64,000 nt of DNA from Gelidibacter maritimus (GTDB taxonomy: Bacteria > Bacteroidota > Bacteroidia > Flavobacteriales > Flavobacteriaceae), in NCBI RefSeq assembly GCF_014062315.1, contig NZ_JACGLT010000001.1, positions 310,001 through 374,000 on the forward strand. The letters are read 5' to 3'. The translations under genes were made by a program, and so were the position numbers. Below are positions 18,485-42,043 of this stretch, one piece after another; the first letter of the stretch is position 1, and each line of letters opens with the position of its first letter. The notes beneath the pieces are model-generated. The model was not told the origin of the DNA, did not search any database, and worked only from the letters and a program-made list of their open reading frames with translations.

Positions 18485-18527
18485 TGATGCAAATCATGTT
18501 TTTAAGAAAATATGTGTTATATATTTG
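18485..18527 (+). promoter_or_regulatory. mla promoter with FNR-like box TGATGCAAATCA
   Basis: The box TGAT-GCAA-ATCA occupies 18485-18496 (centre 18490.5). A full -7 element TATATTTG lies at 18520-18527, 36.5 bp from box centre to element end, and the mlaE ATG follows 17 bp later. The same box and spacing recur at five other promoters in the window. Confidence 0.75.
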
Positions 18528-18544
18528 ACCTTCACCATCTTTAA

Positions 18545-19327
18545 ATGTCAAAATCAAGTTCCTTTTTAAACCGTTCCAAAACGTTTTTCGCTGAAATAGG
18601 TGACATGACTTATTTTGCCGGTCGTTTTTTTAGGGAATTGTTCAGTAGACCTTTTGAGTTTAGAGAACTACTTAGACAATGCTATAATATGGGGAACCGG
18701 TCGTTGTTTTTGGTGATTGTCACAGGATTTATATTAGGTTTGGTCTTTACGCTGCAATCTCGACCTACGTTGACCCAGTTTGGTGCAGAATCTTGGATGC
18801 CTTCCATGATCAGCTTATCCATTGTGAGAGAGATTGGTCCGGTAATAATTGCATTGATCTGTGCTGGTAAGATCGGATCGGGCATAGGAGCAGAGATTGG
18901 TTCTATGCGCGTTACTGAACAAATTGATGCCATGGAGGTGTCAGGTACTAATCCGTTTAAATATTTGGTGGTGACCCGAATTCTTGCGGTCACGCTTATG
19001 TTGCCGTTATTGGTAATTTTGGGCGATGCAGTTGCCCTCGTGGGGTCTGCAATTATAGAAAATCTGAAAGGAGGCGTTTCTTATACGCTTTATTTTAATC
19101 AAGTTTTTGACGCTTTGAAGTTTAGTGACGTTTTTCCGGCAACGGTCAAAACCTTTTTCTTTGGATTTGCCATTGGTCTTGTAGGAACCTATAAAGGCTA
19201 TAATTGCGCCAAAGGGACCGTTGGTGTGGGAGAGGCTTCAAATTCCGCAGTAGTATACACGTCCATGTTGCTTTTTATCATTGACTTCATCGCCGTTTTT
19301 GTAACTGATATATTTTATACGCTATAA
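18545..19327 (+). CDS. mlaE: MlaE-family ABC transporter permease
   Basis: A 260-residue inner-membrane permease with an amphipathic N-terminal helix and about five membrane helices. Family signatures include RPTLTQFGAESW, VREIGPVIIALICAGKIGSGIGAEIGSMRVTEQIDAMEVSG and the C-terminal GYNCAKGTVGVGEASNSAVVYTSMLLFIIDF. It is the first gene of an mlaE-mlaF-mlaD operon whose products move glycerophospholipids between the inner and outer membranes. Gene spacing is 0 bp to mlaF. Its promoter carries an FNR-like box, so it may be expressed under low oxygen or energy stress. Confidence 0.93.
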   Translation: MSKSSSFLNRSKTFFAEIGDMTYFAGRFFRELFSRPFEFRELLRQCYNMGNRSLFLVIVTGFILGLVFTLQSRPTLTQFGAESWMPSMISLSIVREIGPVIIALICAGKIGSGIGAEIGSMRVTEQIDAMEVSGTNPFKYLVVTRILAVTLMLPLLVILGDAVALVGSAIIENLKGGVSYTLYFNQVFDALKFSDVFPATVKTFFFGFAIGLVGTYKGYNCAKGTVGVGEASNSAVVYTSMLLFIIDFIAVFVTDIFYTL

Positions 19328-20080
19328 ATGAATTCCGAAAAACATAAAAAACCCGTTTTAGAACTGAAAGACATAAAAAAGAGTTTTGGAGATAACCACG
19401 TGCTCAAGGGATTCAGTCTGACACTACATGAAGGGGAAAACCTCGTCATCATGGGGAAATCGGGTTCTGGAAAATCGGTAATGGTCAAGTGTATTGTGGG
19501 ATTGATCCAGCCCGATAGCGGCAGTATTAGAATCAAGGATCAGGATATCATCACAATGGGCCAAAAGGAATTGGATTTTTTACGCACCGAAATCGGCTAT
19601 CTTTTCCAAGGAAGCGCCTTATACGATTCAATGACCGTCAGAGAGAATCTGGAGTTTCCATTGCGGCGTCATAAGGATAAGATCAAAAATTTTCAGGGGA
19701 CTGAAGCGTCGGTTCATGAAGCGCTCAAAAGTGTTGGACTTTTGGACGCCATTGACAGGATGCCAGCAGAGTTATCGGGCGGTATGCAACGAAGGGTCGC
19801 CTTGGCGAGAGCATTGATTTTAAAACCAAAAATCATTATGTATGATGAACCCACTACAGGACTGGACCCAATTACGGCAAATGAAATCATTCAGCTCATG
19901 CGGAGCATTCAAAAGGAGTATAACACCTCGTCATTGATAATTACACACGACGTGGATTGCGCGCGCGTCATATCAAATCGGATGATCTTGCTGGTTGATG
20001 GTATCAATTATGCTGAGGGTACCTTTGAAGAACTTTCAAATTCGAAAGACCCACAGACCAGAGCATTTTTTAAAAATTAA
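19328..20080 (+). CDS. mlaF: MlaF-type ABC transporter ATP-binding protein
   Basis: A 250-residue ATPase with Walker A GKSGSGKSV near residue 43, Q-loop LFQGSALYDSMTV, signature LSGGMQRRVALARAL, Walker B IIMYDEPTTGLDP and switch His in ITHDVD. LSGGMQRR and EPTTGLDPITA are typical of MlaF rather than export ATPases. The start codon follows the mlaE stop directly, so the two are translationally coupled. Confidence 0.94.
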   Translation: MNSEKHKKPVLELKDIKKSFGDNHVLKGFSLTLHEGENLVIMGKSGSGKSVMVKCIVGLIQPDSGSIRIKDQDIITMGQKELDFLRTEIGYLFQGSALYDSMTVRENLEFPLRRHKDKIKNFQGTEASVHEALKSVGLLDAIDRMPAELSGGMQRRVALARALILKPKIIMYDEPTTGLDPITANEIIQLMRSIQKEYNTSSLIITHDVDCARVISNRMILLVDGINYAEGTFEELSNSKDPQTRAFFKN

Positions 20081-20085
20081 GTTTT

Positions 20086-21060
20086 ATGGCAAAATCAAAT
20101 TCACAAAAAGTAAGAGTCGGAATCTTCGTGGTCGTAGGCACAATTATCCTCGTGGGTGCCCTATACTTTATAGGATCACGACAACATATCTTTACCAAGA
20201 ACATCTATTTATACTCAGTCTTTGATAATGTAAATGGTCTTATATTAGGTAATAATGTGAGGTATTCGGGTATCAACGTCGGGACGGTGACCAAAATCGA
20301 AATGACGGAAGTCGGTAAAATTACTATTGAGATGACCGTGGAGGAAAAGGCGGCATACTTTATTAAAAAAGATGCAGTGGCATCCATCAGTTCAGATGGC
20401 TTGGTAGGAAGCATGGTTGTGAATATCAGTCCTGGAGATCAACAGCATGGAGCAAACGTAGTTACGGGGGATTATATCAAGGCGGCCAGTAAAGTCGGTA
20501 TGGATGATATGCTGGTAACATTAAGTGCTACCAGTGAAAACCTTTCAAGAATTACGAATCAAATCTTATTGGGTGATGGTGCTTTGGGAGTGTTGATCAA
20601 CGACACGATCATGGCACAGAATATACAACAAACACTTATAGAACTCCGAAAAACTTCCGAAGGCACTGGTTTGGCTATGGCAAAGATCAATCAGGTCATT
20701 TCCAAAATCAACTATGACGAAAGTGCTGCTGCCGTTATTTTGAGCGATACCGCTGCTGCCAATCAAATCAGAAAAGTGTTTGCCAATTTAGAAGCTTCTA
20801 GCGAGGATGTCAACACCATTACCAAAAATTTGGATACCTATATCCAAGATATAAAATCCGGGAAAGGGGCGCTAAACCATCTTACCCAAGATGAAACTTT
20901 TGTTCAGGAAATAGATTCTACGATGATCCAGATAAAAGAAGCATCGGAAAAATTAAATGAAAATATGGAGGCCTTGCAGCATAACTTCTTTTTCCGTGGT
21001 TATTTTAAGAAAAAAGCAAGGCAAGAACGGAAGGAAGCTAAGAGAAACGAGCAAAAGTAG
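20086..21060 (+). CDS. mlaD: MlaD/MCE-family substrate-binding protein
   Basis: A 324-residue protein with one N-terminal membrane anchor (residues about 9-30), then an MCE domain (residues about 38-115: VFDNVNGLILGNNVRYSGINVGTV and ISSDGLVGSMVVNI). A long helical region (about 140-305) follows, with a strongly basic C-terminus. MCE domains assemble as hexamers that pass lipid through a central pore in the periplasm. The helical tail is longer than in E. coli MlaD. MlaA, MlaB and MlaC are not present in the window. A hairpin terminator follows at 21172. Confidence 0.92.
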   Translation: MAKSNSQKVRVGIFVVVGTIILVGALYFIGSRQHIFTKNIYLYSVFDNVNGLILGNNVRYSGINVGTVTKIEMTEVGKITIEMTVEEKAAYFIKKDAVASISSDGLVGSMVVNISPGDQQHGANVVTGDYIKAASKVGMDDMLVTLSATSENLSRITNQILLGDGALGVLINDTIMAQNIQQTLIELRKTSEGTGLAMAKINQVISKINYDESAAAVILSDTAAANQIRKVFANLEASSEDVNTITKNLDTYIQDIKSGKGALNHLTQDETFVQEIDSTMIQIKEASEKLNENMEALQHNFFFRGYFKKKARQERKEAKRNEQK

Positions 21061-21171
21061 GATTGAGGAAACTCTGTGTTACCGGCCTTAATAAACTACT
21101 GATTATTTATCAAGTTAAGACTTCAGTATACACCGCGTTAGTTGCGTTTTCAATTGTATATCAATACATCT

Positions 21172-21199
21172 AATAACAGAGTTAAAGGTGTTATTTTTT
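21172..21199 (+). terminator. Terminator after the mla operon
   Basis: The stem AATAACA / TGTTATT (21172-21178, 21189-21195) with a 10-nt loop is followed by TTTT. It overlaps the last codons of the convergent topoisomerase gene. Confidence 0.55.
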
Positions 21200-22180
21200 C
21201 TTTAAACGACTACGCAACATACACAAAACGCCAACTTCTTCTTTGGATAAATTTTCGGCTTTTTTGAGTAGTTTATTTATTTCCTTCTCAAAATACTTTA
21301 ATGTGCGTCCTTCAGTGTAAACTTCAATAATTCTTGGATCTATGTAGGAGCTACGAGCAACTGATGGTGTGTTCCCCAAGCGCTCGGAGACACGGTTAAC
21401 CGCCTCCTTAATGTTTTTATCCAACGATTTTTGATCTTCTTTATCCACCACACCCAGTTCATCCAAGGCAATGGCAGCAATCATAGTGCCTGCCCAAGTC
21501 CTAAAATCTTTTGCTGAGAAATCGTCACCCATCACTTCGTGGATATAGGAATTCAGATCATCACTTTTTACATCGATAATACGATTGTCTTCATCAAGAT
21601 ATTTAAAAACCTCATAGCCTCGCATATCATCAATCTCTTGAACTATTTTGGCCAGTTTTTTATCAATAATATGTTTTTCTTGCTCTTGGCCTGACTTCCC
21701 TTTATATTCAAATATTATTTCGTCTCCATTGATTGTTAAGTGCTTGTGTCGCAATGTGGTGAGTCCGTAGGTGTCATTTTCCTTAGAGTATGTATCACTT
21801 CCAGGTCTAAAAAATGCCGATTCCAATAATCTGAGCATCGTAGCCATCACTTTATCACGGTCTAACTTTCGTTTTCGTAAATGTTGACCTGTAACGCGTC
21901 GCATGTGTTCCAACTGATCCGCAAATTCAATAATCCGATCAAATTTTTTCGAGTTCTGTCTTTCAATATACTTCGGATGATAAATATATTGTTTTCGATC
22001 TTTATCATCCCGTCCTGTCACCAAAAGATCTGCTTTTTTATTTTCATCAATTTCTACATCAGTCCACGCTGGTGGAATAACGAGCGATTTTATCCAATTA
22101 CGAATAGCTTCGTCTTTAATGGTTTTACCATTTTTATCCTGATAGGTAAAACCTTTGCCGCATTTCTTTCTGTAGTACAT
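21191..22180 (-). CDS. DNA topoisomerase IB (poxvirus type)
   Basis: A 329-residue enzyme of the bacterial/poxvirus topoisomerase IB family. The N-terminal region contains IPPAWTDVEI and YIYHPKYIERQN. The catalytic domain shows MATMLRLLESAFFRPGSDTYSKENDTYGLTTL, FEYKGKSGQ, KDFRTWAGT and the active Tyr in RSSYIDPRIIEVY near residue 290. It relaxes supercoils through a 3'-phosphotyrosyl intermediate. It is monocistronic and converges with the mla operon. Such genes are accessory in bacteria and often accompany stress and repair genes, as here (Ku and LigD 27 kb away). Confidence 0.93.
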   Translation of the reverse strand: MYYRKKCGKGFTYQDKNGKTIKDEAIRNWIKSLVIPPAWTDVEIDENKKADLLVTGRDDKDRKQYIYHPKYIERQNSKKFDRIIEFADQLEHMRRVTGQHLRKRKLDRDKVMATMLRLLESAFFRPGSDTYSKENDTYGLTTLRHKHLTINGDEIIFEYKGKSGQEQEKHIIDKKLAKIVQEIDDMRGYEVFKYLDEDNRIIDVKSDDLNSYIHEVMGDDFSAKDFRTWAGTMIAAIALDELGVVDKEDQKSLDKNIKEAVNRVSERLGNTPSVARSSYIDPRIIEVYTEGRTLKYFEKEINKLLKKAENLSKEEVGVLCMLRSRLKKK

Positions 22181-22422
22181 GGTCGGATATTTTTATAAAA
22201 TTAAATCAAAAATGTAAATCTGATAATCTCAATACCGCTAATTCTTGACCATTATGCTAAAATTTCTGATGGTAATTAGAGCTGTGATCTAATGGGATGA
22301 TATGTTATCGGGATGTTATCAAAAGAAAAGTTTATATTGAAATTTATTTCAGATTGACAGGATATTAGGTTTAACCATTTAACTTTGATATTCTAACCAA
22401 TAAATTAAAAAATTCACCCAAA

Positions 22423-25389: not shown

Positions 25390-25742
25390 TAGCGATAAGT
25401 TTCCGAAAACTTGGAATGGAAACGATCAAAAAGAATTTATTTGATATATTCTGCTTTGGAGAGAAAGAATGGAGTTGACTAATACCAATTTTATTCCCAC
25501 TAGTGGGTTTTAATACCCAGAGGCCTGCCTCGGTCGAAAAAACAATTCCTTTTTCATACCTCCTGGTCCTATCCCGTGGTTTATGATTTTGTAATGTCGC
25601 ACAGAAAGCTATGCTGCTTCTTTATTCCATGACACTGTGATTCATTTGCATGGCCTTAACTATGGAGGTTATGAACAAGTAAATAGAACAAACAATAATC
25701 AAGCTTGAATGCGTCAATACATTGTTAACTTGGTATTGAACC
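25390..25742. other. Intergenic region with hairpin repeat
   Basis: No gene is seen between the convergent GH3 and JmjC-like genes. The best copy (C) of the dispersed hairpin repeat lies at about 25493-25533. Confidence 0.45.
25493..25533. repeat. Dispersed intergenic hairpin repeat, copy C
   Basis: The perfect palindrome CCCACTAGTGGG is followed by TTTTAATACCC and the inverted repeat GAGGC-CT-GCCTC. The blocks match copy A at 8454-8506 in order and orientation. Confidence 0.45.
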
Positions 25743-26606
25743 TTAGTTTAACAAAGCTTCTTTGACATCAAATGTTTTTCCTAAAACCACTTTGTATCCT
25801 TTAACAATCCAAGCGAGTTTTGGATGTTTTTGTTTTGCAGACAAATAAATTTCATCCATAAAAGTATTCCAATTAAATGAGTTGACATGATCAATAGCAT
25901 AGGTGAGATTAAAGTTATGAATATAGGTTGTATGCCACCATCCAGAGGGTATAAAAAGAGTTTCTTTTGGTTTTAAAGTGGTTTTAAGAGGTTCAGCATT
26001 TTTAAATAATGGGAATTTATCATAATCAGGATCCATAATATTCACTGGGCTTTGGTTGCGGAGTATTTTATCTGGATAAAAGTAAGGGGTTTGGTCGGGT
26101 GAGTATAGGATAAAATCTTTCTCTCCAATTATTTGCGTCAATTGGGTATGTACCCCAAGATAATCGATATGTAAAGTGGGAAAGGAACAACCTTTTCCGC
26201 CAAAAAATAATTGTCGTTGATTCGTACGTTTTGCGAAAGTATTCAGTAACAAAGGACTAAATAACCTATTGGATTTGCCATAAACGATTAACGGAATCTC
26301 GTCTACGAATTCTGGGAAATCTTGATTGAGATCAAAGATATTTGGATAGGGCGCCTTATTTTCAGGTGTTGAGGCCATACATAAATCAATTATTTCTGAT
26401 AAAGTATAGGTTTTACCGTCTATAGTTCTCTTTAAATGGCCATAATTGGCTTTAAAGAATTTTGGTGTAAATTTTTCTGAAGATGCCCAAGTTGCTTTGT
26501 CAGTTACCACTACTGGGACTGATTTTTTTACATATTTATTATAAAATTCTTTATCTGAAAGGCCACTGCATCTTTCTATTTTGGATACTTTCTTTTGAAA
26601 CGCCAT
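25743..26606 (-). CDS. JmjC/cupin-like 2-oxoglutarate oxygenase-type protein
   Basis: A 287-residue protein of the cupin_8/JmjC type. The Fe-binding pair is visible in LHIDYLGVHTQLTQIIGEKD (His-x-Asp near residues 147-149), with the distal His in GWWHTTYI near residue 220. The N-terminal part has the usual LSDKEFYNKYVKKSVPVVV lead. Family members hydroxylate protein or tRNA side chains or small molecules. No substrate can be proposed here. It is monocistronic. Confidence 0.8.
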   Translation of the reverse strand: MAFQKKVSKIERCSGLSDKEFYNKYVKKSVPVVVTDKATWASSEKFTPKFFKANYGHLKRTIDGKTYTLSEIIDLCMASTPENKAPYPNIFDLNQDFPEFVDEIPLIVYGKSNRLFSPLLLNTFAKRTNQRQLFFGGKGCSFPTLHIDYLGVHTQLTQIIGEKDFILYSPDQTPYFYPDKILRNQSPVNIMDPDYDKFPLFKNAEPLKTTLKPKETLFIPSGWWHTTYIHNFNLTYAIDHVNSFNWNTFMDEIYLSAKQKHPKLAWIVKGYKVVLGKTFDVKEALLN

Positions 26607-29126: not shown

Positions 29127-29146
29127 TATCCCATATCGCCATAAAA

Positions 29147-29243: not shown

Positions 29244-30401
29244 CTAATACCTATACAAGGCATTTACCCTCGAGTTTGGATTAGGCATCTCATCCTTTTC
29301 CAACAAATAAACCTTACCACCTTTTAAGAAGGTTTTTATGGCTGCCATATTCATTAATGAAATGTTATTGTCTTTATCTTCACCTTCCGTAACCGATACA
29401 ACATCATTTTCTTCTTTGTAGGTTCCAAAAATATCTTCTTTGTTTTCACAAAATAGCGCTTCAACTTGCCCATTAATGGCGGCTGGTAATATTTTTCCAA
29501 TACCTATTGATGTGGTGCCCTTACCTTGTTCACTCAAGAACTTTTCAATATGATCCTTTCGTTCTTGGTCAAATACTGGAGCCATTCTTTCCCAAGCCAT
29601 TTCATGGATATCAAAGATGTCTGAACTACTGAAATCGACAATTAGATTTTCTTCCATCAGATTTGTGTAGGTGTTAACCTCCTTATAGATATCAAAAAGT
29701 GGGCTTTGTGCTGCAACTAACAACGGCATGGTCTCTTCTCGGAAGATAGTCGCAAGACCATCATTAATGGCTCGAAAGTACTTTTTTATTTCATTCTTCC
29801 TTTGACCAGTTGCGGCTTCCTGACCGTGATACATCGGTTGTCCAGACCCTGTAGCTCCTGACCTAAATTGCAGGTTTTTTTCTTCGTAATCAAAACCTAC
29901 ACGGTCTTGTTTGGTTTCTGGTATCAGATCTTCAATCTCAATTTCAGTAAAACTGTGTCTTTCACATTCGTATAATTTAACATTATCCCGATCTAACGTT
30001 AGTAAATAAAAATTACCATCGCCTACAAACATGGGCATTAATGGTTTTAAATAGAATGTATTTGAGATATGGCTATATTCTTTAAAATGAACCGGCAGCG
30101 TATAATTTCTGAAAAATCCATCGGCCGAAAAAATTGCCAGACCATCAGATTGTTCGCGCCAGAATGAGCTATTATCAATCAGTTCTTGTATGGGTTGTGA
30201 TAATTTATTGATCTCATCTGCATTTAGACCTTTTTTCGACAGCTTGTCCTTGGCCTCTTTTAGTTGGTTTTTTAAGAATAAGGTGTCTTCTTCCTGTAAG
30301 ACTTTTTTACCTGCTCTATGAGTCGGTATAAAAATTGAAACACAATGATCTTGGTTGACATTGTGTAGTTCCTCTATTTCTTCTTTAGTTATTAACGGCA
30401 T
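29244..30401 (-). CDS. baeRF family 3 protein (archaeo-eukaryotic release factor-like)
   Basis: A 385-residue protein with the N-terminal signature CVSIFIPTHRAGK and a middle region LLTLDRDNVKLYECERHSF. The C-terminal segment ends in LPAAINGQVEALFCENKEDIFG and PNSRVNALYRY, as in bacterial baeRF family 3. These are related to eRF1 domains 2 and 3 and to the Pelota/Dom34 fold, and are predicted to act on ribosomes or RNA. No experimental function is known to me. Its promoter carries an FNR-like box shared with the N-ATPase and RtcB genes, so it probably acts in ribosome rescue or hibernation under energy stress (inference). Confidence 0.82.
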   Translation of the reverse strand: MPLITKEEIEELHNVNQDHCVSIFIPTHRAGKKVLQEEDTLFLKNQLKEAKDKLSKKGLNADEINKLSQPIQELIDNSSFWREQSDGLAIFSADGFFRNYTLPVHFKEYSHISNTFYLKPLMPMFVGDGNFYLLTLDRDNVKLYECERHSFTEIEIEDLIPETKQDRVGFDYEEKNLQFRSGATGSGQPMYHGQEAATGQRKNEIKKYFRAINDGLATIFREETMPLLVAAQSPLFDIYKEVNTYTNLMEENLIVDFSSSDIFDIHEMAWERMAPVFDQERKDHIEKFLSEQGKGTTSIGIGKILPAAINGQVEALFCENKEDIFGTYKEENDVVSVTEGEDKDNNISLMNMAAIKTFLKGGKVYLLEKDEMPNPNSRVNALYRY

Positions 30402-30463: not shown

Positions 30464-30506
30464 CTAAGATACCTTAAAAATGACCTACCTCAAATGATCT
30501 GGGTCA
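30464..30506 (-). promoter_or_regulatory. baeRF3 promoter with FNR-like box TGATCTGGGTCA
   Basis: The box lies at 30495-30506 (centre 30500.5). The minus-strand -7 element TATCTTAG lies at 30471 to 30464, 36.5 bp from the centre. The gene starts 63 bp further downstream. Confidence 0.7.
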
Positions 30507-30724: not shown

Positions 30725-30726
30725 GT

Positions 30727-30769
30727 TGACCTGGATCATTTCAAACCTTAGTTATATCAGATATATTGG
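30727..30769 (+). promoter_or_regulatory. orf30880 promoter with FNR-like box TGACCTGGATCA
   Basis: The box lies at 30727-30738 (centre 30732.5). The -7 element TATATTGG (one mismatch to TAnnTTTG) lies at 30762-30769, again 36.5 bp from the centre. The leader to the GTG start is about 105 bp. Confidence 0.65.
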
Positions 30770-31387: not shown

Positions 31388-31430
31388 TGATAAAAATCAT
31401 TTCTTTTAGATTTAAAGAAGCCTATCTTTA
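31388..31430 (+). promoter_or_regulatory. N-ATPase operon promoter with FNR-like box TGATAAAAATCA
   Basis: The box lies at 31388-31399 within ATGAT-N4-ATCAT (centre 31393.5). The -7 element TATCTTTA (one mismatch) lies at 31423-31430, 36.5 bp from the centre. The atpD ATG follows about 100 bp later. Confidence 0.75.
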
Positions 31431-31481
31431 CCTAATATCAGAAAATATAAACGTCTCTTTTATAACCGATTGTGAAGGTGA

Positions 31482-32939
<1,458 letters not shown>

Positions 32940-32943
32940 ACCG

Positions 32944-33345
32944 ATGAAAACGACTTTAATGCAACTTAAAATTTTACTTCCCTCTGGCGTTTTTGCTGAT
33001 ATAAAAAACGTGAGACGCATTGTGGTGGAAACAACGGATGGATCTTATGGTATTTTACCGCGCAGGCTGGACTGCACAGCGGCCTTGGTAACGGGGATTT
33101 TAGTGTATGAAATAGAAGGTGAAGATGAAAAGTATATTGCGGTAAATGACGGCATATTAATTAAAGCAGGATCGCAGGTGTCGATATCTGTGCGCCATGC
33201 CATTGGCAATGCGCCTTTAGGCAAATTAAGAGCTAGGGTTGAAAAAGAGATGATTGAATTGGATGAACTGGAAGTAAACGCTCGCAACGTGATGGCGAAG
33301 TTGGAAACTGGTTTTTTACGTAACTTCCAAAATTTGAGAAAATAA
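32944..33345 (+). CDS. atpC: N-ATPase epsilon subunit
   Basis: A 133-residue protein with the epsilon beta-sandwich (MQLKILLPSGVFADIKNVRRIVVETTDGSYGILPRRLDCTAALV in outline) and a C-terminal helical part (residues about 95-133). It forms the central stalk with gamma. It lies 4 bp after atpD, the position that defines N-ATPase operons. The helical tail is short and ends LRNFQNLRK. Confidence 0.9.
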   Translation: MKTTLMQLKILLPSGVFADIKNVRRIVVETTDGSYGILPRRLDCTAALVTGILVYEIEGEDEKYIAVNDGILIKAGSQVSISVRHAIGNAPLGKLRARVEKEMIELDELEVNARNVMAKLETGFLRNFQNLRK

Positions 33346-33347
33346 TT

Positions 33348-33671
33348 GTGAAAGAAGAACAACCAAATAAAAACAGTTCTTTTGAGAAAGTGGTCGGCGA
33401 CAAGGAAGAACGGAAATTGCAGGCGCAACGCGAAACAAAAAGCGTATGGTCCGGATTGGGTTTATTTGGAATGATCGGTTGGTCCATTGCAGTTCCTACG
33501 ATAATGGGCGCCGCGCTGGGGATTTGGCTCGATAAAAACTTCAAGGAAGATTTCTCCTGGACCCTCAGCCTTTTGGTAGCAGGATTGATGTTAGGATGTT
33601 TGATTGCGTGGAATTGGATTCAAAAAGAAAACAGGCAAATTCATAAAAAAAACAAAGATGGAACTAAATGA
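33348..33671 (+). CDS. atpQ: N-ATPase membrane protein AtpQ (AtpI/AtpZ-like)
   Basis: A 107-residue protein, apparently GTG-started 2 bp after atpC. A charged N-terminus is followed by two membrane helices (residues about 38-60 and 70-95: IGWSIAVPTIMGAALGIWLD, LSLLVAGLMLGCLIAWNWI). It belongs to the AtpI/AtpZ type, which in N-ATPase operons is called AtpQ and is thought to help c-ring assembly or Mg2+ supply. It overlaps atpR by 14 bp. Confidence 0.85.
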   Translation: MKEEQPNKNSSFEKVVGDKEERKLQAQRETKSVWSGLGLFGMIGWSIAVPTIMGAALGIWLDKNFKEDFSWTLSLLVAGLMLGCLIAWNWIQKENRQIHKKNKDGTK

Positions 33672-33972
33672 TATCTTAAACCTACTTCCTGCGGTCTTGG
33701 CAGGGATTTTATTGGGTGCAATATTTTTTGGAGGGCTTTGGCTCACCGTGAACAAAGGTTTGGGTTCAAAAAAGCCAACCCTGATATTTTTTGCTAGTTT
33801 GATACTAAGAATGGCCATTATCTTAGTTGGATTTTATTTTGTGGGAGGCGATAGTTGGCAGAAAATGTTGGCCTGTCTTGTTGGGTTTTTAATAGCGAGA
33901 ATTGTGGTTACAAACGTCACGAAAAAAATTAAACAAACAGATCCGGTGTTCATAAAAAAAAGTAAACGATGA
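33658..33972 (+). CDS. atpR: N-ATPase subunit AtpR
   Basis: A 104-residue protein from the ATG at 33658, with three hydrophobic helices. The second contains a conserved Arg in ASLILRMAIILVGFYFVG, a known AtpR feature proposed to contact the c-subunit carboxylates. AtpR occurs only with N-ATPases and is a marker of the family. An upstream TTG in frame would overlap most of the atpQ end and is not preferred. Confidence 0.87.
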   Translation: MELNDILNLLPAVLAGILLGAIFFGGLWLTVNKGLGSKKPTLIFFASLILRMAIILVGFYFVGGDSWQKMLACLVGFLIARIVVTNVTKKIKQTDPVFIKKSKR

Positions 33973-34655
33973 GAATTAGTCCTGATCAATTGGTGTTTTG
34001 GGAGTATGGATTTATTAGTTTAAACCTTACTATAGTTACCACCTGGGTATTGATGTTTCTGCTCGCGCTTGGTGCATGGCTGGTTACCCGAAATTTAAAA
34101 TCAGAAATTAAAACCTCAAGATGGCAGAATGTCTTGGAGATGCTGGTTATTATGATCCGAGATCAAATAAAAGAAGTAGGACTGAAAAAACCTGATAAAT
34201 ACATTGGTTTTATCGGCACCTTGTTTCTTTTTATTGCTGTCTCCAATTTGTTGACCATCGTGCCTTGGTATGAGGCACCAACCGGTTCTCTCTCTACTAC
34301 AGCAGCATTGGCAATTTCGGTTTTTATTGCGGTTCCCGTTTTTGGAATTGCCGACGGTGGACTCAAGGGATATCTACGGTCTTATTTACAACCAAATTTT
34401 ATAATGCTTCCTTTTAATATTATAAGCGAGATTTCACGAACACTGGCACTGGCGGTCAGACTATTTGGAAACATCATGAGCGGCGGCTTGATTGCTACGG
34501 TTTTGATTTCTATAGTGCCGTTTTTCTTTCCGATGATCATGAGTGCATTAGGTTTGTTGACGGGAATGATACAGGCTTATATTTTTGCAATATTGGCAAC
34601 AGTATATATAGCGGCAGCTACACAGGATGAAGAGGAGATAGAGGGTAGTGGATAG
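33969..34655 (+). CDS. atpB: N-ATPase a subunit
   Basis: A 228-residue membrane protein overlapping atpR by 4 bp (ATGA). The essential Arg of the ion channel is visible in ISRTLALAVRLFGNIMSGGL near residue 155-165, and the C-terminal helix contains GMIQAYIFAILATVYIAAAT. The protein forms the half channels against the c ring. It ends with an acidic tail (QDEEEIEGSG). Confidence 0.93.
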   Translation: MRISPDQLVFWEYGFISLNLTIVTTWVLMFLLALGAWLVTRNLKSEIKTSRWQNVLEMLVIMIRDQIKEVGLKKPDKYIGFIGTLFLFIAVSNLLTIVPWYEAPTGSLSTTAALAISVFIAVPVFGIADGGLKGYLRSYLQPNFIMLPFNIISEISRTLALAVRLFGNIMSGGLIATVLISIVPFFFPMIMSALGLLTGMIQAYIFAILATVYIAAATQDEEEIEGSG

Positions 34656-34750
34656 ACGGTGGAATAACGGATAAGAAAATGGAGGCGAGTTTGACAGTTT
34701 TCGGTTATGAAATTGTCAATAAAAAGCCAACGTTACCTAAGCATTCCCAA

Positions 34751-34799
34751 ACAACGGACAACGGACAACGGACAACGGAAAACGGAAAACAGACAACTG
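34751..34799. repeat. Heptanucleotide tandem repeat (ACAACGG)n in the atpB-atpE gap
   Basis: Four exact copies of ACAACGG (34751-34778) are followed by three variants (AAAACGG, AAAACAG, ACAACTG) to 34799. The tract lies in the 165-bp gap between atpB and atpE and 21 bp before the atpE start. A heptamer array can change length by slippage, and here this would alter the atpE leader but no reading frame. Confidence 0.9.
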
Positions 34800-34820
34800 A
34801 AAAATTTAAAATATAATAAC

Positions 34821-35087
34821 ATGGATAACGTAACAATCATCGCAGTGGCATCAATAATCACCGCTGGAATTACAACAGGAATTGGCAGTATGATGCCTGC
34901 ATTAGGAGAAGGAAGAGCAGTTTCAAAAGCATTGGAATCTATTGCGCAACAGCCCGATGCTGCACCAACAATTACCAGAACCTTATTTGTGGGTCTGGCA
35001 ATGATTGAATCGACAGCTATTTATTGTTTTGTGCTTTCGATGATTCTCATTTTTGCAAATCCGTTTTGGAATCATTTTATAGCATAA
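34821..35087 (+). CDS. atpE: N-ATPase c subunit
   Basis: An 88-residue two-helix proteolipid starting at the ATG at 34821. A longer in-frame reading from 34707 would translate the heptamer repeat and is rejected. Compared by eye with the Na+-binding c subunit of Ilyobacter, the second helix keeps the ligand set E-S-T-x2-Y (MIESTAIY), and the Gln of helix 1 is replaced by Glu (ALGEGRA). Two carboxylates per hairpin are typical of N-ATPases. Ion choice (Na+ or H+) is not settled by sequence, since a Burkholderia N-ATPase ring was reported to be H+ specific. Confidence 0.94.
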   Translation: MDNVTIIAVASIITAGITTGIGSMMPALGEGRAVSKALESIAQQPDAAPTITRTLFVGLAMIESTAIYCFVLSMILIFANPFWNHFIA

Positions 35088-35094
35088 TTAGCTT

Positions 35095-35865
35095 ATGGAA
35101 ATCAACTGGTTTACAGTCATAGCGCAAATAGTCAATTTTCTAATCTTGGTTTGGCTGTTAAAACGGTTTTTATATAAGCCGGTATTAGAGGCTATTGATG
35201 CAAGAGAAAAGAAGATTGCCTTACAATTAAAGGAAGCCGCAACAAAAAAAGCAGAGGCCAAAAAAGATCAAGATCTGTTCCGTCAAAAGAATGAGTATTT
35301 TGATAAAGAACGTGTCGCAATAATGAATGCTGTGCACGAACAGGTTGATGCTGAAAAGCAACGTCTTTTCGAAGAAGTGAGACAGGAATCTACGGTACTG
35401 CGTTCTAAATTTGAGGAATCTTTAAAACAACAAGAACAGGATATAACCAATCGGTTCAAAATAAAAACTAAGGATGCCGTTTTTCAAATCGCAAAAAAAA
35501 CGCTTTCAGATCTCGCGGATGTCAGTCTTGAGCAACAAGTGGTTACTGTATTTATTCACAAAATAAGGAATTTAGATGGGGCAGCTAAAACAAAATTTAT
35601 TGAAGCACTCAAGAATAGCGATGGTCTCATTACTATTTCAAGTGTATTTGATCTAACGGATAATTCGAAACAGCAACTCGAAAAAGCGCTGGAAAAAATC
35701 ACCGAAAAACAAAATGATTTTCAATACGAATTGGAACCGGAATTGGTGAGTGGCATTAAGATAGAGACGGCAACTTATCAATTATCATGGACAATTGATT
35801 CCTATCTCGAAGCCTTAAAAAAAGAAAGTATCATCACAAAGGACAAGGAAAATGCGATCAACTGA
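35095..35865 (+). CDS. atpF: N-ATPase b subunit with delta-like C-terminal part
   Basis: A 256-residue protein. Residues 1-30 hold the membrane anchor ([26 protein letters not shown]), followed by the dimeric b-type coiled coil (30 to about 140). A C-terminal region (about 150-256) resembles the delta subunit, with the [12 protein letters not shown] motif that in delta reads like DxxliGGf. N-ATPase operons have no separate delta gene, and this fusion takes its place as the peripheral stalk. Confidence 0.88.
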
Positions 35866-37390
35866 TTTAGACCAAATATTAGAGGATACCTTTCTGGAGA
35901 TAAGCGACAGTAAGCAAAATTATGATCCTGCAATTCAATTTAGTGAAAAGGGTATTGTAAAGAATGTTTCTGCAGGCATTGCTACTGTAACGGGATTGCC
36001 GGGAACAGGCTTTGAAGAATTATTGGAGTTTCCTAATAATTTATACGGCATGGCTTTTAATCTTGATGAAGATGAAATAGGCGTGGTGCTTTTGGGCAGG
36101 AACGATCAACTCCAAGCTGGTGATCCTGTTTTAAGAACCCATCGGGTTGCGGATGTGCCTGTGGGTGAGGATCTTATTGGGAGGGTTATTGATTCGCTCG
36201 GAAATCCGATGGACGATAAAGGACCCATTTCATCCCAATACCGATACCCAATTGAACGACCTGCACCGCCAATTATGAGTCGCGAGGCGGTAAATGAGCC
36301 TTTGCAAACCGGAATTAAGGTTATTGATGCCATCATTCCCATTGGGCGGGGCCAACGCGAATTGATCCTTGGCGATCGGCAAACAGGAAAAACCTCTATT
36401 GCCGTTGATACCATTCTCAACCAACACGATAAAAATGTACTGTGTGTGTACTGCGCCATCGGACAACGTACCGCAGCGGTGGCCACAGTAATTTCTGAAC
36501 TGCAAGAGAAAGGCGCCATGGCGTATACCGTGGTTGTATTTTCGGAAGGCAACAGTTCACCTGGGCTTCAATATTTAACGCCCTATGCAGCCACAAGCAT
36601 TGCTGAGTACTTTATGGAACAAGGGCGCGATGTTTTAATCGTTTATGACGATCTTACGAAGCATGCGCGGGCATACCGTGAACTTTCACTTTTATTGCGT
36701 CGACCGCCAGGAAGGGAAGCTTTTCCCGGCGATATCTTTTACATCCATTCCCGACTTCTGGAACGGTCAACCCATCTCAATGAAGCCAATGGTGGTGGTT
36801 CTTTAACGGCATTGCCCATTATTGAAACACAAGCGCAGGATATCTCGGCATATATCCCCACAAACATCATTTCAATTACCGATGGACAGATTTATTTATC
36901 GCCAAAATTATTCGAATTGGGTTTGCTTCCGGCCGTAGATATCGGAAAATCAGTGTCTCGGGTTGGCGGTAAGGCACAGTTAAGAGCCTATCGGAAAATT
37001 GCTGGGAATTTGAAACTTGCCTACGCCCAATCTGAGGAATTGGAAACCTTCTCACGTTTTGGAACCCGTTTGGATGCCGATACCCAAAAAATGATTGAGC
37101 GAGGAAAGCGAATTCGGATGATTTTTAAACAACCTGAAATGGAACCCGTTTCAGTGCCAGAGCAACTCTTGGTTTTGATGGCCCTTATTCATGGGGTTTT
37201 TGATGATGTTCCACTTGATAAAATTACAATGGCAGAAAATCTGATCAAAAGGAAATCGGCCCAACTACCTGATGAGGTATTGAGACGCATTTTTGCCTCA
37301 GAACCATTGGAGGAGGCAGAGGAAGCTGCTATCGTCGCACTGGCAAAGGATGCCATTGCAAGTATCCCTGAACGCGAGGCTCATGAGTGA
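35852..37390 (+). CDS. atpA: N-ATPase alpha subunit
   Basis: A 512-residue nucleotide-binding F1 subunit overlapping atpF by 14 bp. Walker A is GDRQTGKTS near residue 172. Further motifs are [59 protein letters not shown] and the Arg-finger region SVSRVGG. Together with beta it forms the F1 head. Confidence 0.95.
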
Positions 37391-38264
37391 TACATTAATC
37401 AACTTACAAAGACGACAAAAAAGTGCGGGCGACATGGGATCGGTGGTTAGAACGATGAAAGCTATGGCCACTTCCAATATCACCCAATATGAAATGTCAG
37501 TAGACTCTTTACAGGCTTATTATCGCACCATATCCCTTGGAATCCACGCCTGTTTTAAAAAGGAAAGGATTTCGTTGATTGCGGATCATCACGACAATAA
37601 AAATGCCAAATCTGTGGCCATTATCTTTGGATCAGACCAGGGACTGGTTGGACGCTTCAACGATACCATAAGTTCCTATGCGCAAGATCTCATAAAAGAG
37701 CTTCCTGGACAAACGGAAGTCTGGGTCGTTGGCGAAAGAGTGTACGCCTTGCTTTTGGATGGAAAATTCTCCCCTACAAAACGTTTTGCGGTTCCAAATT
37801 CGGTCACCGCAATCACGCCTTTGGTCAACCAAATTTTAATTAAAAGTGAAGCCTATCGACAGAAAGATCAGTTTTACAGCTTTTATATTTTTCACAATAC
37901 GCCAACGGAAGGCGCCAATTACCGACCAGAAAGTCAACAATTATTTCCGCCTGATAAAAAGTGGGAGGCGGAGATAGCCAATATGGAATGGCCATCGCAA
38001 AATGTACCGCAAGTAATTGGAGACATTGAAAACACCTTGCGTACGCTAATCAGAGAATACCTCTTTGTTTCGTTGTATAAAGCCAGTGCAGAATCTTTGG
38101 CCGCCGAGAACGCCAGTAGATTGGAGGCCATGGAACGTGCCGAAAAAAATATTGATGAGATGTTGGAAGATTTAAAACGCGGTTACAACCGTCTGAGACA
38201 AAGTACTATTGATGAAGAGCTTTTTGATGTTATTGCAGGGTTTGAGGCACTGAAGGAAAAGTGA
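37383..38264 (+). CDS. atpG: N-ATPase gamma subunit
   Basis: A 293-residue central-shaft protein starting at the ATG at 37383, which overlaps the atpA end by 8 bp. The N-terminal helix [25 protein letters not shown] and the C-terminal helix [22 protein letters not shown] form the coiled coil that turns inside alpha3beta3. The middle domain begins [14 protein letters not shown]. It is the last gene of the operon. Longer in-frame starts upstream lie within atpA and are rejected. Confidence 0.92.
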
Positions 38265-38309
38265 TCTGAGACCAGCTATTTTTGATTTTTGCTTAAACAC
38301 TAACGATAA

Positions 38310-38340
38310 CAAAAAATGCCGCCCATACGGGTCGGGCGGG
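38310..38340 (-). terminator. Leftward terminator after the universal stress gene
   Basis: On the minus strand the stem CCGCCC / GGGCGG (38339-38334, 38324-38319) is followed by CATTTTTTG, so it ends transcripts of the stress gene at 38461. It may also slow readthrough from atpG. Confidence 0.7.
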
Positions 38341-38460
38341 TTGTTCATATTTTCCATCCGCCGCGACAGATACAAAATAATCGCAGCGTCATAAAACGAA
38401 AAGACAACCTCGTTTTCTGTATGATATCATAAAATTAAATTGGCATAAGCGGTAATTGGG

Positions 38461-39321
38461 TTAAAGATGAAATTTGCCATAATTTTTGGCGTTAAAACTC
38501 ATTATAGGAATTTTTCCGTAGGATTTCATTTTTTTCAAGAGATTTCGGTAAAACAGATCCGCTGCTAGGCTTGTGTTTTCACGCTCAAGCATTCCAATGA
38601 TGTCGGCATTGGTTTTTTTATAGTATGTTTTTAATTCATTGAAAATATCATCCGAATATAAAATCTCCAATGCTACATTGTCATATTTTACATGTTTATC
38701 AATTTTCTCTTTCCTTTCTGTTTGCTCTACGTCAAATACCGTTTTTTCCGAAGGACAAATATGCACAACTTTGATTTTCGCTTCAAGAGGCTTGGCAATT
38801 GTTGCCAATTTACAAAGGGCGTCAAGATCTTCTTGTTGAAAATCTGAAGCGTACACAATAGTTTTTATTGGAGTGTAAGTGCTGTCTTCTGGAATGGTCA
38901 ATACAGGATAAGGTGCTTTTTCAACCAACCCTCTTGCCGTACTGCCCATAATCAAACGTCGTAATGTACTTGTACTATTCATTCCGGTGATAATCAATAG
39001 GGACTGAAGTTCCTCGGCCTTAGAAATAATACCATCAACCGCCGACTTATCCATAATGGCTTCAACCGATATGTTGTTCGTTTCTAAATTACCGCCGAGA
39101 TGCTCCTTGCAAAAGGCCTCAAGTTTCTCATTGTGTTTCTCATATGTATCTTGTTCACGATTTGGGAACGGAATTCTGGCTCTGGTTTGCATAGCTGATG
39201 GACTTTCAAACACGTGAATCACCCATAATTTTGCGTTTAGGCCTACACTCATCTGATGGGCATATTTTAATGCAGCAATAGAGCTTTCTGAATAATCAGT
39301 GGCGTATAAAATAGACTTCAT
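38461..39321 (-). CDS. Tandem universal stress protein (UspA-type)
   Basis: A 286-residue protein with two Usp domains. The first begins MKSILYATDYSESSIAALKYA and has the nucleotide-loop motif GMNSTSTLRRLIMGSTARGLVEKAPYPVLTI. The second begins IKTIVYASDFQQED at about residue 150 but lacks a clear G-rich loop, so probably only the first domain binds ATP. It is monocistronic. Its promoter has a perfect -7 element and an FNR-like box, as known for universal stress genes induced by low oxygen in other bacteria. Confidence 0.9.
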   Translation of the reverse strand: MKSILYATDYSESSIAALKYAHQMSVGLNAKLWVIHVFESPSAMQTRARIPFPNREQDTYEKHNEKLEAFCKEHLGGNLETNNISVEAIMDKSAVDGIISKAEELQSLLIITGMNSTSTLRRLIMGSTARGLVEKAPYPVLTIPEDSTYTPIKTIVYASDFQQEDLDALCKLATIAKPLEAKIKVVHICPSEKTVFDVEQTERKEKIDKHVKYDNVALEILYSDDIFNELKTYYKKTNADIIGMLERENTSLAADLFYRNLLKKMKSYGKIPIMSFNAKNYGKFHL

Positions 39322-39918
39322 TTTACCTACAGTTTTAATTATAAGTCAAATTTATGAAATGAACCATCAAAATAAAATGACATAAATCATCTTGTTTAAA
39401 TTAATGATACTGAGCCTTAAACGTTTCGGTAGCTTTTTATAATATGGAGACGACAGTAAAAATAAATTTCCTTTTGAACATTACAAGGTTTTTTGTGTCA
39501 ATGAATCAGCTACACATCACCACAAACATCTGGCTCTTAATTTAATGTGTATATGCGGATTTTTAAAAAGTCTGGCGATGGATATAATGCATGTAGTTTT
39601 CTCTAAATTGAAAGTCTAAAGTTTTTCTATTGTCGTTTTTTACTAGTAAATTCCATGTTTCTTATCATTTATGATGGATGTAATAAGTGAAAAGTTAATA
39701 ACCGAGTTAAAGTTAGGAATGCCGTAATATTTTCAAAATAAAATATTTACGAGGCGATTGGGCAATTTTCAATTTAGAAAATAGATGCTTGCCATAGAGT
39801 TTCAATCAATTCTCTACTTTATATGCGAAACGGTCTTGATGCTTTATCAAACAACAATGATGTCTAAATAAGAATACTATATACAACAGACTCTTGGTCT
39901 CAACATAAAAACAGATAT
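39322..39918. other. Divergent intergenic region usp / saccharopine dehydrogenase-like
   Basis: About 597 bp without a gene. It holds the usp promoter at the left end and the 15-bp palindrome TTGAT-N5-ATCAA at 39836-39850 near the right end. Confidence 0.5.
39347..39389 (-). promoter_or_regulatory. usp promoter with FNR-like box TGACATAAATCA
   Basis: The box lies at 39378-39389 (centre 39383.5). The minus strand has a perfect -7 element TAAATTTG at 39354 to 39347, exactly 36.5 bp from the centre and 26 bp before the start codon. Confidence 0.78.
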
Positions 39919-40992
39919 ATGATAGATAAAATAGGTGTTCTCGGATTAGGGAAGGTGGGTAGTCTTGTGGCTACTCTATTAAGTTCGAAATATGAAGTGG
40001 AAGGTATGGATCGGAATCAACCAGATGAAACATTTCCTTTTAAAATTGTAAAAGGCGATGTTTCCAAAGACGAAACGATTCGCGAGTTTCTTAAAAACAA
40101 ACAAGCGGTAGTGTCTTGTCTGCCTTATTTTCTCAATATAGATATTGCCCGGACAGCTGCCGATATGGGTGTGCATTACTTTGATTTAACTGAGGATGTG
40201 CCCACCTTGAATGCCATTATAGAATTATCAAAAGAAAGTAAAGCTGTAATGGCACCACAATGTGGTTTGGCACCTGGATTTATCGGGATTTTGGGCGCCG
40301 GACTGTATTCTCAATTCTCTGAATTTCGGTCGGTTAAGTTGAGGGTTGGCGCATTGCCCCTGCATCCTATGGGACAATTGGGCTACAGTTTTACCTGGAG
40401 TGCTGAAGGAGTGATCAATGAATACCTTAATGACGCTGAAGTCATTCATAATAGTCAGCGTAAAATGGTGAGCTCCCTTGATGACGTGGAGTCAATCAAT
40501 ATTAACGGACGTCAGTACGAAGCTTTTTCTACTTCTGGCGGATTGGGAACCATGTGCGAAACCTTAGAGGGTACCGTGGATACGCTAAATTATAAAACCA
40601 TGAGGTACCCAGGACATCGGGACGCCATGAAATTATTACTTTATGATCTGCAATTGAAAAACGATCGGAAACTGGCAAAAGATATTCTAAACAATGCCTT
40701 GCCTTTGGTTGATGAAGATATCGTCCTGGTTTATGCCGCCGTGGAGGGAAAGATAGATGGTGATTTGAGAAGAAAAGAATTCAGCGAGTCCTATCGTAAA
40801 ATATCGCTGGATGGTAAAGATTGGCGCGCCATAAGTTGGACAACAGCTTGCAGCATCTCGGCGGTGGTGGATCTTGTTTCTGAAGGCAAATTAAAAAACA
40901 AAGGGTTTATAAAACAAGAAGAGATTCCATTAGAAATGTTTCTAAAATCACATTTCGGTGCCATGTATGAAACTTATAAAGACCCAAAATAA
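39919..40992 (+). CDS. Saccharopine dehydrogenase-family oxidoreductase
   Basis: A 357-residue enzyme. It has an N-terminal Rossmann fold GVLGLGKVGSLVATLL, then the strand VVSCLPYFLNIDIARTAADMGVHYFDLTED and the catalytic-region motif APQCGLAPGFIGILGAGL. The C-terminal substrate domain contains GGLGTMCETLEG and TMRYPGHRDAMKLLLYDL. It is related to saccharopine reductase and to lysine-ketoglutarate reductase/SDH. Whether it acts in lysine degradation or another amino acid route is not shown. The xth gene follows after 52 bp. Confidence 0.85.
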   Translation: MIDKIGVLGLGKVGSLVATLLSSKYEVEGMDRNQPDETFPFKIVKGDVSKDETIREFLKNKQAVVSCLPYFLNIDIARTAADMGVHYFDLTEDVPTLNAIIELSKESKAVMAPQCGLAPGFIGILGAGLYSQFSEFRSVKLRVGALPLHPMGQLGYSFTWSAEGVINEYLNDAEVIHNSQRKMVSSLDDVESININGRQYEAFSTSGGLGTMCETLEGTVDTLNYKTMRYPGHRDAMKLLLYDLQLKNDRKLAKDILNNALPLVDEDIVLVYAAVEGKIDGDLRRKEFSESYRKISLDGKDWRAISWTTACSISAVVDLVSEGKLKNKGFIKQEEIPLEMFLKSHFGAMYETYKDPK

Positions 40993-41044
40993 TATAATAT
41001 TTAAGCTCTAAACAGGCTTTTGATCATTAAAAAAAATATAACTG

Positions 41045-41809
41045 ATGAAATTAATTTCATGGAATATTAATGGCATAAGAGCCATAACAAAAAAAGACTT
41101 CTTTGAGGATTTCTCAAAAATGGATCCAGATGTACTCTGTCTTCAAGAAACAAAGGCGCAAGATGGCGAAGTGGAAAAAGCTTTATTACAGTTGAGCACA
41201 TACCACCAGTATTACAATTCTGCCGAGAGAAAGGGCTATTCGGGTGTTGCATTACTTTCAAAGAAAAAACCGCTGACCGTTACTTATGATATGGGCGTTG
41301 AAGCGCATGACCAAGAAGGAAGAATAATTTGTGCGGAGTTTGATGCCTTCTATTTGGTCAATGTCTACGTTCCGAATTCTGGCCAAGGATTGGTCAGGTT
41401 GGATTACAGGCAGCAATGGGATACCGATTTTCGGAATTATCTATCGAATTTGAAAGCTAGCAAACCTGTTATTCTTTGTGGCGATTTAAACGTAGCGCAT
41501 CAGGCCATCGACCTCAAAAACGATAAAGCCAATTATAATAAATCCGCTGGATACACACAGGTTGAGATAGACGGAATGGATTTACTTCTTGATACTGGGT
41601 TTACCGATTCGTGGCGACATTTTCATCCGGATACCGAGGCGTATACGTATTGGAGTTACCGATTTAAAGCGCGTGAGCGTAATACAGGATGGCGACTTGA
41701 TTATTTTCTGGTCAGTAATTCCTTAATGGACAAGGTAAAGAACGTCGAAATATTATCCGAATACCATGGTTCAGACCACTGCCCAATTCAGATTGAACTT
41801 GATGTTTAA
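41045..41809 (+). CDS. xth: Exodeoxyribonuclease III / AP endonuclease
   Basis: A 254-residue EEP-fold nuclease. It has SWNINGIRA (metal), LQETKAQ (Glu), the catalytic Asn/Asp in GDLNVAHQAIDL, the DNA-binding YRFKARERNTGWRLDYFLVS and the terminal SDHCPI. The product cleaves abasic sites and degrades 3' ends in base excision repair. It is in the same direction as the dehydrogenase gene and may be cotranscribed. Confidence 0.94.
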   Translation: MKLISWNINGIRAITKKDFFEDFSKMDPDVLCLQETKAQDGEVEKALLQLSTYHQYYNSAERKGYSGVALLSKKKPLTVTYDMGVEAHDQEGRIICAEFDAFYLVNVYVPNSGQGLVRLDYRQQWDTDFRNYLSNLKASKPVILCGDLNVAHQAIDLKNDKANYNKSAGYTQVEIDGMDLLLDTGFTDSWRHFHPDTEAYTYWSYRFKARERNTGWRLDYFLVSNSLMDKVKNVEILSEYHGSDHCPIQIELDV

Positions 41810-42000
41810 ATAGGATAATATATTAATTTCTGAAGAACATAATATTTGCATATTTCTGCAGCTATGTCCAGGAATGTATCTATTATCTTTTGAAAGTTCA
41901 GCCCCATATGATGCTATAATGGTCAAAGCATCAATTAGTTGGTCGGTTTATTGATTCTCGCACATATCGCCTAGAATATTTAATACATCTTATAACCGAC

Positions 42001-42043
42001 TGATCTTGGTCATTGCAAAACTTGAAATAAATGGTTAAGTTAA
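42001..42043 (+). promoter_or_regulatory. rtcB promoter with FNR-like box TGATCTTGGTCA
   Basis: The box lies at 42001-42012 (centre 42006.5). At the expected place 36.5 bp downstream lies TAAGTTAA (42036-42043), a partial match to TAnnTTTG. The rtcB start is 43 bp further on. Confidence 0.6.

Follow-up and report, generated by a model that had tools for sequence, protein, structure and literature searches.

Crp/Fnr low-oxygen regulons, the DosR regulon of mycobacteria, the NmpR system of Myxococcus xanthus, the gene neighbourhoods of the ribosome hibernation factor Balon, TAnnTTTG promoters and the induction of cbb3 in flavobacteria are all already known. Here we analysed a stretch of 64,000 nucleotides from Gelidibacter maritimus (the window; positions 310001-374000 of contig C1 in a genome of 4.71 Mb on 70 contigs), in which six promoters share a composite element made of a palindromic box, TGAY-N4-RTCA, and a TAnnTT octamer at a fixed distance from it. 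We propose, with a probability of roughly 0.78, that this element marks a DosR-like hypoxia and dormancy regulon that is read by Crp/Fnr-type activators across the family Flavobacteriaceae. The proposal is built on what was directly observed: a conserved promoter architecture with exact spacing, the set of genes that it precedes, and a correlation between the number of sites and the presence of two candidate regulator types.

The closest described systems are the class II regulons of the Crp/Fnr family (E. coli FNR, DNR/ANR/FixK), which likewise have a dimeric palindromic box centred at -41.5. Genes for hemN, nirK, cbb3 and universal stress proteins (USPs) are typical targets of FNR, DNR, ANR and FixK, and the recognition helix of E. 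coli FNR carries E-SR residues. The G. maritimus system differs from these in its -33/-7 promoter of the Bacteroidetes type, its TExxIR recognition helix and its receiver-fused paralogues. The preliminary description of the window had called the box FNR-like, which holds for the palindrome and its class II position and does not hold for the E. coli FNR box proper, whose outer T and A are missing. An E. coli-type FNR box (TTGAT-N4-ATCAA, with helix E-xx-SR) was rejected, the flanks here being A/C and T and the helix TExxIR. The published FNR/DNR box is TTGATnnnnATCAA (PMC1274295), and the flavobacterial box is without its outer FNR bases. HcpR2 of Bacteroides and Porphyromonas belongs to the same family of regulators and the same phylum; its predicted regulon is hcp only in most Bacteroides and in P. 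gingivalis, and it was ruled out by its different motif, GTAACnnnnGTTAC (PMC1274295).

Mycobacterial DosR resembles the present system in its content of USPs and ribosome-stabilisation genes, and is its best-known analogue; the flavobacterial system is not a DosR-type member because its candidate regulator has a Crp-type helix-turn-helix (HTH) and DosR one of the LuxR type. The DosR regulon is under two-component control and includes USPs, Hsp20 and nitroreductase-like proteins. In G. maritimus, by contrast, the box is different and MlaEFD is included, with the N-ATPase and RtcB added in this lineage. Homologues of Balon are induced by hypoxia in mycobacteria, and Balon genes lie near those of RaiA, Hsp20, HdeD and RtcB (PMC10901736); the terms FNR, Bacteroid and Flavobact are absent from that paper's main text. 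Unlike such Balon/RaiA stress operons, the genes considered here are dispersed and tied together by a common promoter element. NmpRSTU of M. xanthus likewise places oxygen-utilisation genes under two-component control, and the paper describing it also takes up cbb3 and universal stress proteins; its own features are an NtrC-type regulator, sigma-54 promoters and the box GCGCA-N5-TGCGC (PMC11841059). A literature search covering titles and the beginnings of abstracts, mostly without subscription papers, showed among the entries listed no flavobacterial Crp/Fnr regulon with this box, no fixed joining of box and -7 element, no core MlaEFD target and no LOV kinase paired with a regulator of the receiver-cNMP-Crp type.

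All six boxes reported in the preliminary description, upstream of mlaE, baeRF, orf30880, the N-ATPase operon, usp and rtcB, were found where it had placed them, and its claim of a constant distance proved exact: in the direction of transcription of each gene, on the minus strand for baeRF and usp, the octamer starts 23 bp past the box and ends 36.5 bp from its centre in six of six cases, and its eight bases are those given in that description. The window holds 14 TGAY-N4-RTCA boxes against 5.0 expected, a number reached by none of 100 shuffles. Counting both strands of each box, which are not fully independent, 6 of 28 box-strands have TAnnTT at the 23-bp spacing compared to 0.24 expected (P = 1.2e-7; 1.4e-5 after multiplication by 120 spacings; 2.4e-6, uncorrected, with the intergenic frequency of TAnnTT). 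The other eight boxes have no TAnnTT at this spacing on either strand, and a scan of the window allowing one mismatch gave no extra intergenic composite upstream of any gene, based on simple open reading frame (ORF) calls.

Positions left free by the pattern are also non-random. Among 189 unique sites, a biased sample from regions of 25 genomes chosen for mlaE, baeRF, orf30880 or the regulators, position -48 is A or C at a frequency of 0.92 (A 0.51, C 0.41), -35 is T at 0.95, -6 is T at 0.70 and -5 is G or A at 0.92 (G 0.53, A 0.39), the last two restoring the TAnnTTTG consensus. Start-site mapping in Flavobacterium psychrophilum locates the TAnnTTTG -7 box at -12 to -5 (PMC9723704). Because the spacing is fixed and the -7 position is published for that species, the centre of the box can be placed at -41.5, which supports the class II spacing claimed earlier and makes these predicted class II Crp/Fnr-dependent promoters.

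The composite is enriched well beyond the window. The whole genome contains 36 matches, compared to 2 for a reversed-pattern control, and 14 of the 36 cluster within C1:117-352 kb. In 428 kb of sequence, consisting of 290 kb of contiguous DNA and pieces chosen for holding matches or regulators, there were 22 matches at a spacing of 23, with a mean of 1.39 and a maximum of 5 for the other 119 spacings. Placement was assigned with simple ORF calls for 33 of the 36 matches, those on C45, C56 and C67 being left out: 30 were intergenic and three (L019, L021, L030) lay in coding sequence, so that the pattern is less common in coding sequence and passes one of the checks named in the preliminary description. 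Twenty-eight of the 33 sites precede a gene by no more than roughly 210 bp, including L017, in which the octamer ends 24 bp past the called start; two other intergenic sites had no same-strand gene called within 1 kb.

The composite recurs in related genomes, as the preliminary description had asked to be checked, with 3254 matches compared to 448 reversed controls in 149 genomes of the family, at least one site in 146 of them and an average of about 22 per genome (3254/149). Counts are 66 against 29 controls in other families of the order (6 genomes) and 368 against 92 in other orders of the class (37 genomes), and 251 of 296 genomes in a sample of the phylum have a match. Among the distant relatives, G413, which belongs to a different family of this phylum, stands out with 30 composites to 1 control.

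Individual targets were compared by scoring orthologues for a perfect composite from 350 bp upstream to 45 bp into the gene, with starts taken from tblastn and the G. maritimus copy counted. The best-conserved target tested was mlaE, with the site in 26 of 30 orthologues (the top 30 among 51 matches across the 149 genomes); in named genomes, among the matches listed, 18 of 37 relatives with at least 63% identity had it and 2 of 43 below. Perfect composites precede 10 of 26 orf30880 matches, or 13 with one mismatch allowed, a count in which two distant matches without a tblastn match (L117, L118) are scored as site-less and starts are uncertain in L070, L114 and L121. They also precede 6 of 20 baeRF matches, two of the three N-ATPase beta genes found in 149 genomes, and 2 of 19 rtcB orthologues (2 of 4 close ones, at least 62% identity, and none of 15 distant). 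For comparison, the site-rich stretch of C1 contains 230 genes that encode 100 aa or more, and 14 of them carry a composite. In several genomes (L186, L187, L188, L189, L190, L199) relatives of orf30880 are the divergent neighbours of mlaE, and in G143 two composites stand back to back between the two (C1:323002-323095).

These counts support the earlier claim of one promoter architecture and one regulon, which is far larger than the six promoters originally described. MlaEFD, together with USPs, 28 genes of which have a site in 20 of 25 genomes in the regions examined, look like core members. Membership of RtcB and the N-ATPase, both claimed earlier, is restricted to some lineages, and they were rejected as core members given the rtcB count and the presence of the N-ATPase in 3 of 149 genomes. 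Further targets with the composite in the family are Hsp20, FtsH, BON and dodecin. Since the gene for HPF also carries the composite, two unrelated ribosome hibernation proteins, HPF and the Balon-like candidate of the window, share one promoter code. The low-oxygen programme proposed earlier draws support from composites at hemN, nirK, a cytochrome c gene, ccoS and sdhC; dependence on oxygen itself would be an inference from this gene set.

Candidate readers of the box were sought among the HTH_Crp proteins of G. maritimus, five of which score above the Pfam cut-off and a sixth below. Three share the recognition helix T-A-T-E-[ST]-[AL]-I-R: a small cysteine-rich Fnr-like protein and two receiver-cNMP-Crp regulators, one in the window and one on contig C34. 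The helix reads TATES[AT]IR in 30 of 30 relatives of the Fnr-like protein that were compared, and each of its cysteines 4, 7, 29, 53, 59 and 106 recurs in 29-30 of them; their spacing is unlike that of the four [4Fe-4S] cysteines in E. coli FNR. The Crp-type regulator at 11193-11825 was not favoured, having DLYTSRVVISR in place of TExxIR in its helix region, and the sixth, below-cut-off protein (C70) has the helix PESLSR.

At a threshold of E 1e-40, 91 of the 149 genomes encode the Fnr-like protein and 66 the receiver-Crp type, for which at most 13 candidates per genome were scored. The median number of net sites per Mb was 9.22 in genomes with both types (n = 36), 5.97 with the receiver type only (n = 30), 3.48 with the Fnr-like type only (n = 55) and 0.88 with neither (n = 28); rank tests, uncorrected for ancestry, gave P = 1.9e-9 for both versus Fnr only, 5.8e-8 for receiver only versus neither and 1.1e-6 for Fnr only versus neither. 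The receiver-Crp regulator and mlaE also tend to occur together: 42 genomes have the two, 76 have neither, 7 have mlaE alone and 24 the regulator alone (odds ratio 19). Binding of the box by Crp/Fnr-type regulators is predicted from the correlation of site density with regulator presence, and probably at least two types read one common box.

Each of the two receiver-cNMP-Crp regulators of G. maritimus adjoins a histidine kinase. We compared 25 kinases, the two of G. maritimus and 23 from loci hand-picked, not randomly, from 66 genomes. A LOV-like domain was present in 17 (10 of 11 window-type and 7 of 14 C34-type) and gave no match in the other eight; the photoactive cysteine is kept in 15 and lost in the window kinase (NNLLFLR) and in G115 (NIKFLQ). 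The C34 kinase retains this cysteine of the NCRFLQ motif, and its LOV domain (residues 130-253) has as best match the YtvA-FixL fusion 4gcz; NCBIfam models for YtvA and for blue-light kinases match below their cut-offs. It resembles YtvA/YF1-type LOV domains and differs by the adjoining receiver-cNMP-Crp regulator and USP genes. In 13 of 14 C34-type loci, all but G143, a site comes immediately after the gene for the regulator; a USP gene follows in 11 of these and a different gene in G061, whereas in G115 the following gene lies outside the stretch analysed. A site precedes the kinase gene itself in seven genomes (window-type G108, G056, G011, G037, G001 and G119; C34-type G125). Neighbours of the window-type regulator in several genomes include genes for a YtxH-domain and a small helical protein, some with their own sites (L191:2682-3011, L285-L292), and in several (L191, L285-L292) the gene beside the kinase encodes what we take to be a patatin-like protein.

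Coordinates and sequence matches of the features are collected in Table 1. In the MlaEFD operon, NCBIfam models for MlaD and MCE also match, below their cut-offs. The only PDB sequence match of the baeRF protein at E up to 10 is 8rd8_B (E 3e-10, residues 9-245), and PDB codes are confirmed as Balon in PMC10901736. We call the protein Balon-like, not proven Balon, because its score against the Balon-type NCBIfam model AOC03_06830 is 136 bits, well below the cut-off of 330; its relation to Balon is evident in sequence and its role in hibernation is that of a candidate. A distant second baeRF paralogue (24% identity) lies at C1:255947-256975, between composites at C1:249392 and C1:260172. The product of orf30880 had no Pfam or NCBIfam match. 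The N-ATPase operon has the subunit set of an alternate F1F0 ATPase, by matches to TIGR03305, 03166, 02230, 03165, 03306, 03322, 03321, 03324 and 03323, and its c subunit has the motif ESTAIY, whose glutamate lies in the first helix; proton specificity was found for a related N-ATPase that has two carboxylates (PMC5376962).

Table 1. Composite sites, genes of the window and other composite-bearing or regulatory genes of G. maritimus (window coordinates, or contig and position where a contig is named).
Feature	Location	Strand	Evidence
mlaE composite site	18485..18527	+	box and TATATTTG
baeRF composite site	30464..30506	-	box 30495-30506 and TATCTTAG
orf30880 composite site	30727..30769	+	box and TATATTGG
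N-ATPase operon composite site	31388..31430	+	box and TATCTTTA
usp composite site	39347..39389	-	box 39378-39389 and TAAATTTG
rtcB composite site	42001..42043	+	box and TAAGTTAA
mlaE-mlaF-mlaD (MCE lipid transport) operon	18545..21060	+	PF02405 MlaE, PF00005 ABC ATPase, PF02470 MlaD, above cut-off
Balon-like baeRF protein, candidate ribosome hibernation factor	29244..30401	-	Pfam baeRF families
orf30880, 128 aa	30880..31266	+	ORF
N-type (alternate F1F0) ATPase operon	31491..38264	+	nine subunits above curated cut-offs
Universal stress protein	38461..39321	-	PF00582, 1.8e-21
RtcB family RNA ligase	42087..43247	+	PF01139, 1.9e-109
Candidate regulator, helix TATETAIR	43500..44570	-	PF00072 receiver, PF00027 cNMP-binding, PF13545 Crp-type HTH
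PAS/GAF histidine kinase, LOV-like domain without photoactive cysteine	44567..47833	-	adjoins candidate regulator
Fnr-like protein, 225 aa, cysteine-rich	C1:161293-161970		TATExxIR helix; adjoins cbb3 genes
Second receiver-cNMP-Crp regulator	C34:21400-22458		aligns with window regulator over whole length
LOV histidine kinase, GKNCRFLQ	C34:19526-21403		followed directly by the receiver-cNMP-Crp regulator and consecutive USP genes
Target hemN			TIGR00538, above cut-off
Target copper nitrite reductase (nirK)			TIGR02376, above cut-off
Target ccoS of cbb3			TIGR00847, above cut-off
Target sdhC			TIGR02046 (NCBIfam), above cut-off; without Pfam match
Target cytochrome c			PF00034
Target MauG-like peroxidase			PF03150
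Target PPOX/Nim-like protein			PF12900
Target HdeD/DUF308			PF03729
Target USP			PF00582
Target ATP-cone/Mrr protein			PF03477, PF04471
Further targets: two more USPs, CBS-domain protein, FMN reductase, amidohydrolase			
Target Na+/H+ antiporter	C20:13521		PF06965; site 111 bp upstream
Target HPF	C17:21225		PF02482

In the regulon that we propose, dimers of Crp/Fnr type would sit at -41.5 beside RNA polymerase bound to the TAnnTTTG -7 box and bring about class II activation. The readers would be the cbb3-linked Fnr-like protein, which may report oxygen, and one or two receiver-cNMP-Crp response regulators, whose PAS/LOV kinases may add a second input through flavin or blue light. Oxygen or redox limitation would be the signal, perhaps joined by blue light as a second one, and the output would be survival under energy-poor conditions, combining micro-oxic respiration, ribosome hibernation through HPF and the Balon-like protein, stress proteins and lipid transport between the membranes, to which RNA repair and ion pumping would be added in the lineage of the window. 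When oxygen is limiting, cbb3 and heme synthesis increase in F. psychrophilum; neither crp nor fnr occurs as a word in that report (PMC9723704).

The alternative that survives best replaces oxygen as the signal by general starvation, stress on the envelope or blue light, and makes the respiration genes only one part of a general stress regulon. Targets such as USP, Hsp20, HPF, FtsH, BON and dodecin would fit this, as would the 15 of 25 kinases whose LOV domain keeps the photoactive cysteine. However, hemN, nirK, ccoS and sdhC are also targets, the cysteine-rich Fnr-like protein adjoins cbb3 genes, and eight of the kinases gave no LOV match and two more, including that of the window, are without the cysteine, so that we regard this alternative as unlikely while granting it real weight.

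We consider it still less probable that the cbb3-linked Fnr-like protein alone reads the box, with the response regulators binding elsewhere and lying merely near USP genes. The wide occurrence of the Fnr-like protein and its six conserved cysteines agree with such a role, and Fnr-only genomes do contain 933 sites compared to 192 controls. Yet receiver-only genomes hold 726 sites against 77 controls and are denser in sites (median 5.97 versus 3.48 per Mb, two groups compared without a test), the response regulators share the recognition helix, and sites directly follow their genes in 13 of 14 C34-type loci and precede the kinase gene in seven genomes. A chance origin of the composite in an AT-rich genome, whose base composition favours TAnnTT and the TGAT/ATCA words, would suit the 45 of 296 phylum genomes without any match, but it is refuted by the reversed control (36 versus 2), the peak at a single spacing and the conservation at 26 of 30 mlaE orthologues, leaving it practically no probability.

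Several observations weigh against a family-wide low-oxygen regulon read by these activators. First, the comparison of site densities disregards shared ancestry, and with the limited number of candidates scored per genome the absence of a regulator was perhaps over-called; two genomes, both less than 85% complete (G048, G147), have 34-36 sites with neither regulator detected. Second, a 195-aa Crp-type protein on C34 with the helix RVETVIR shares E-xx-IR and is a possible alternative reader of the box. Third, no site precedes the kinase gene of the window, also when one mismatch is allowed. Fourth, 14 of 20 baeRF matches are without a perfect site, among them the closest one (same genus, 76% identity), and at the thresholds applied the genome that encodes it gave no match to mlaE, rtcB or the N-ATPase either. 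The distant rtcB orthologues are a further such case; because none of the 15 has a site, they also form a built-in negative control. Lastly, a study of anammox communities found Crp/Fnr homologues of Flavobacteriales near MalR, pointing to carbon and not to oxygen (PMC8510549).

Beyond the regulon itself, we tentatively suggest, at odds short of even, that in Flavobacteriaceae a pair formed by a LOV kinase, sensing blue light or flavin redox state, and a receiver-cNMP-Crp regulator shares the promoter code with the Fnr-like protein and integrates light history and oxygen shortage at the -41.5 box, leading to a respiring but dormant state in which both hibernation factors, USPs and MCE transport are switched on; the kinase in the lineage of the window, having lost the light cysteine, may be a redox sensor.

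Flavobacteriaceae are widespread aquatic and soil bacteria, and the composite gives a testable, family-wide promoter code for their low-oxygen and dormancy genes. It points to a concrete pair of regulators with a sensor domain of the blue-light type, and cultured members with a conserved mlaE site, among whose named loci are those of Maribacter flavus and Gramella jeungdoensis, offer systems in which it could be tested. The code predicts that micro-oxic respiration, MCE lipid transport and stress proteins would be switched jointly with the two hibernation factors, HPF and the Balon-like protein.

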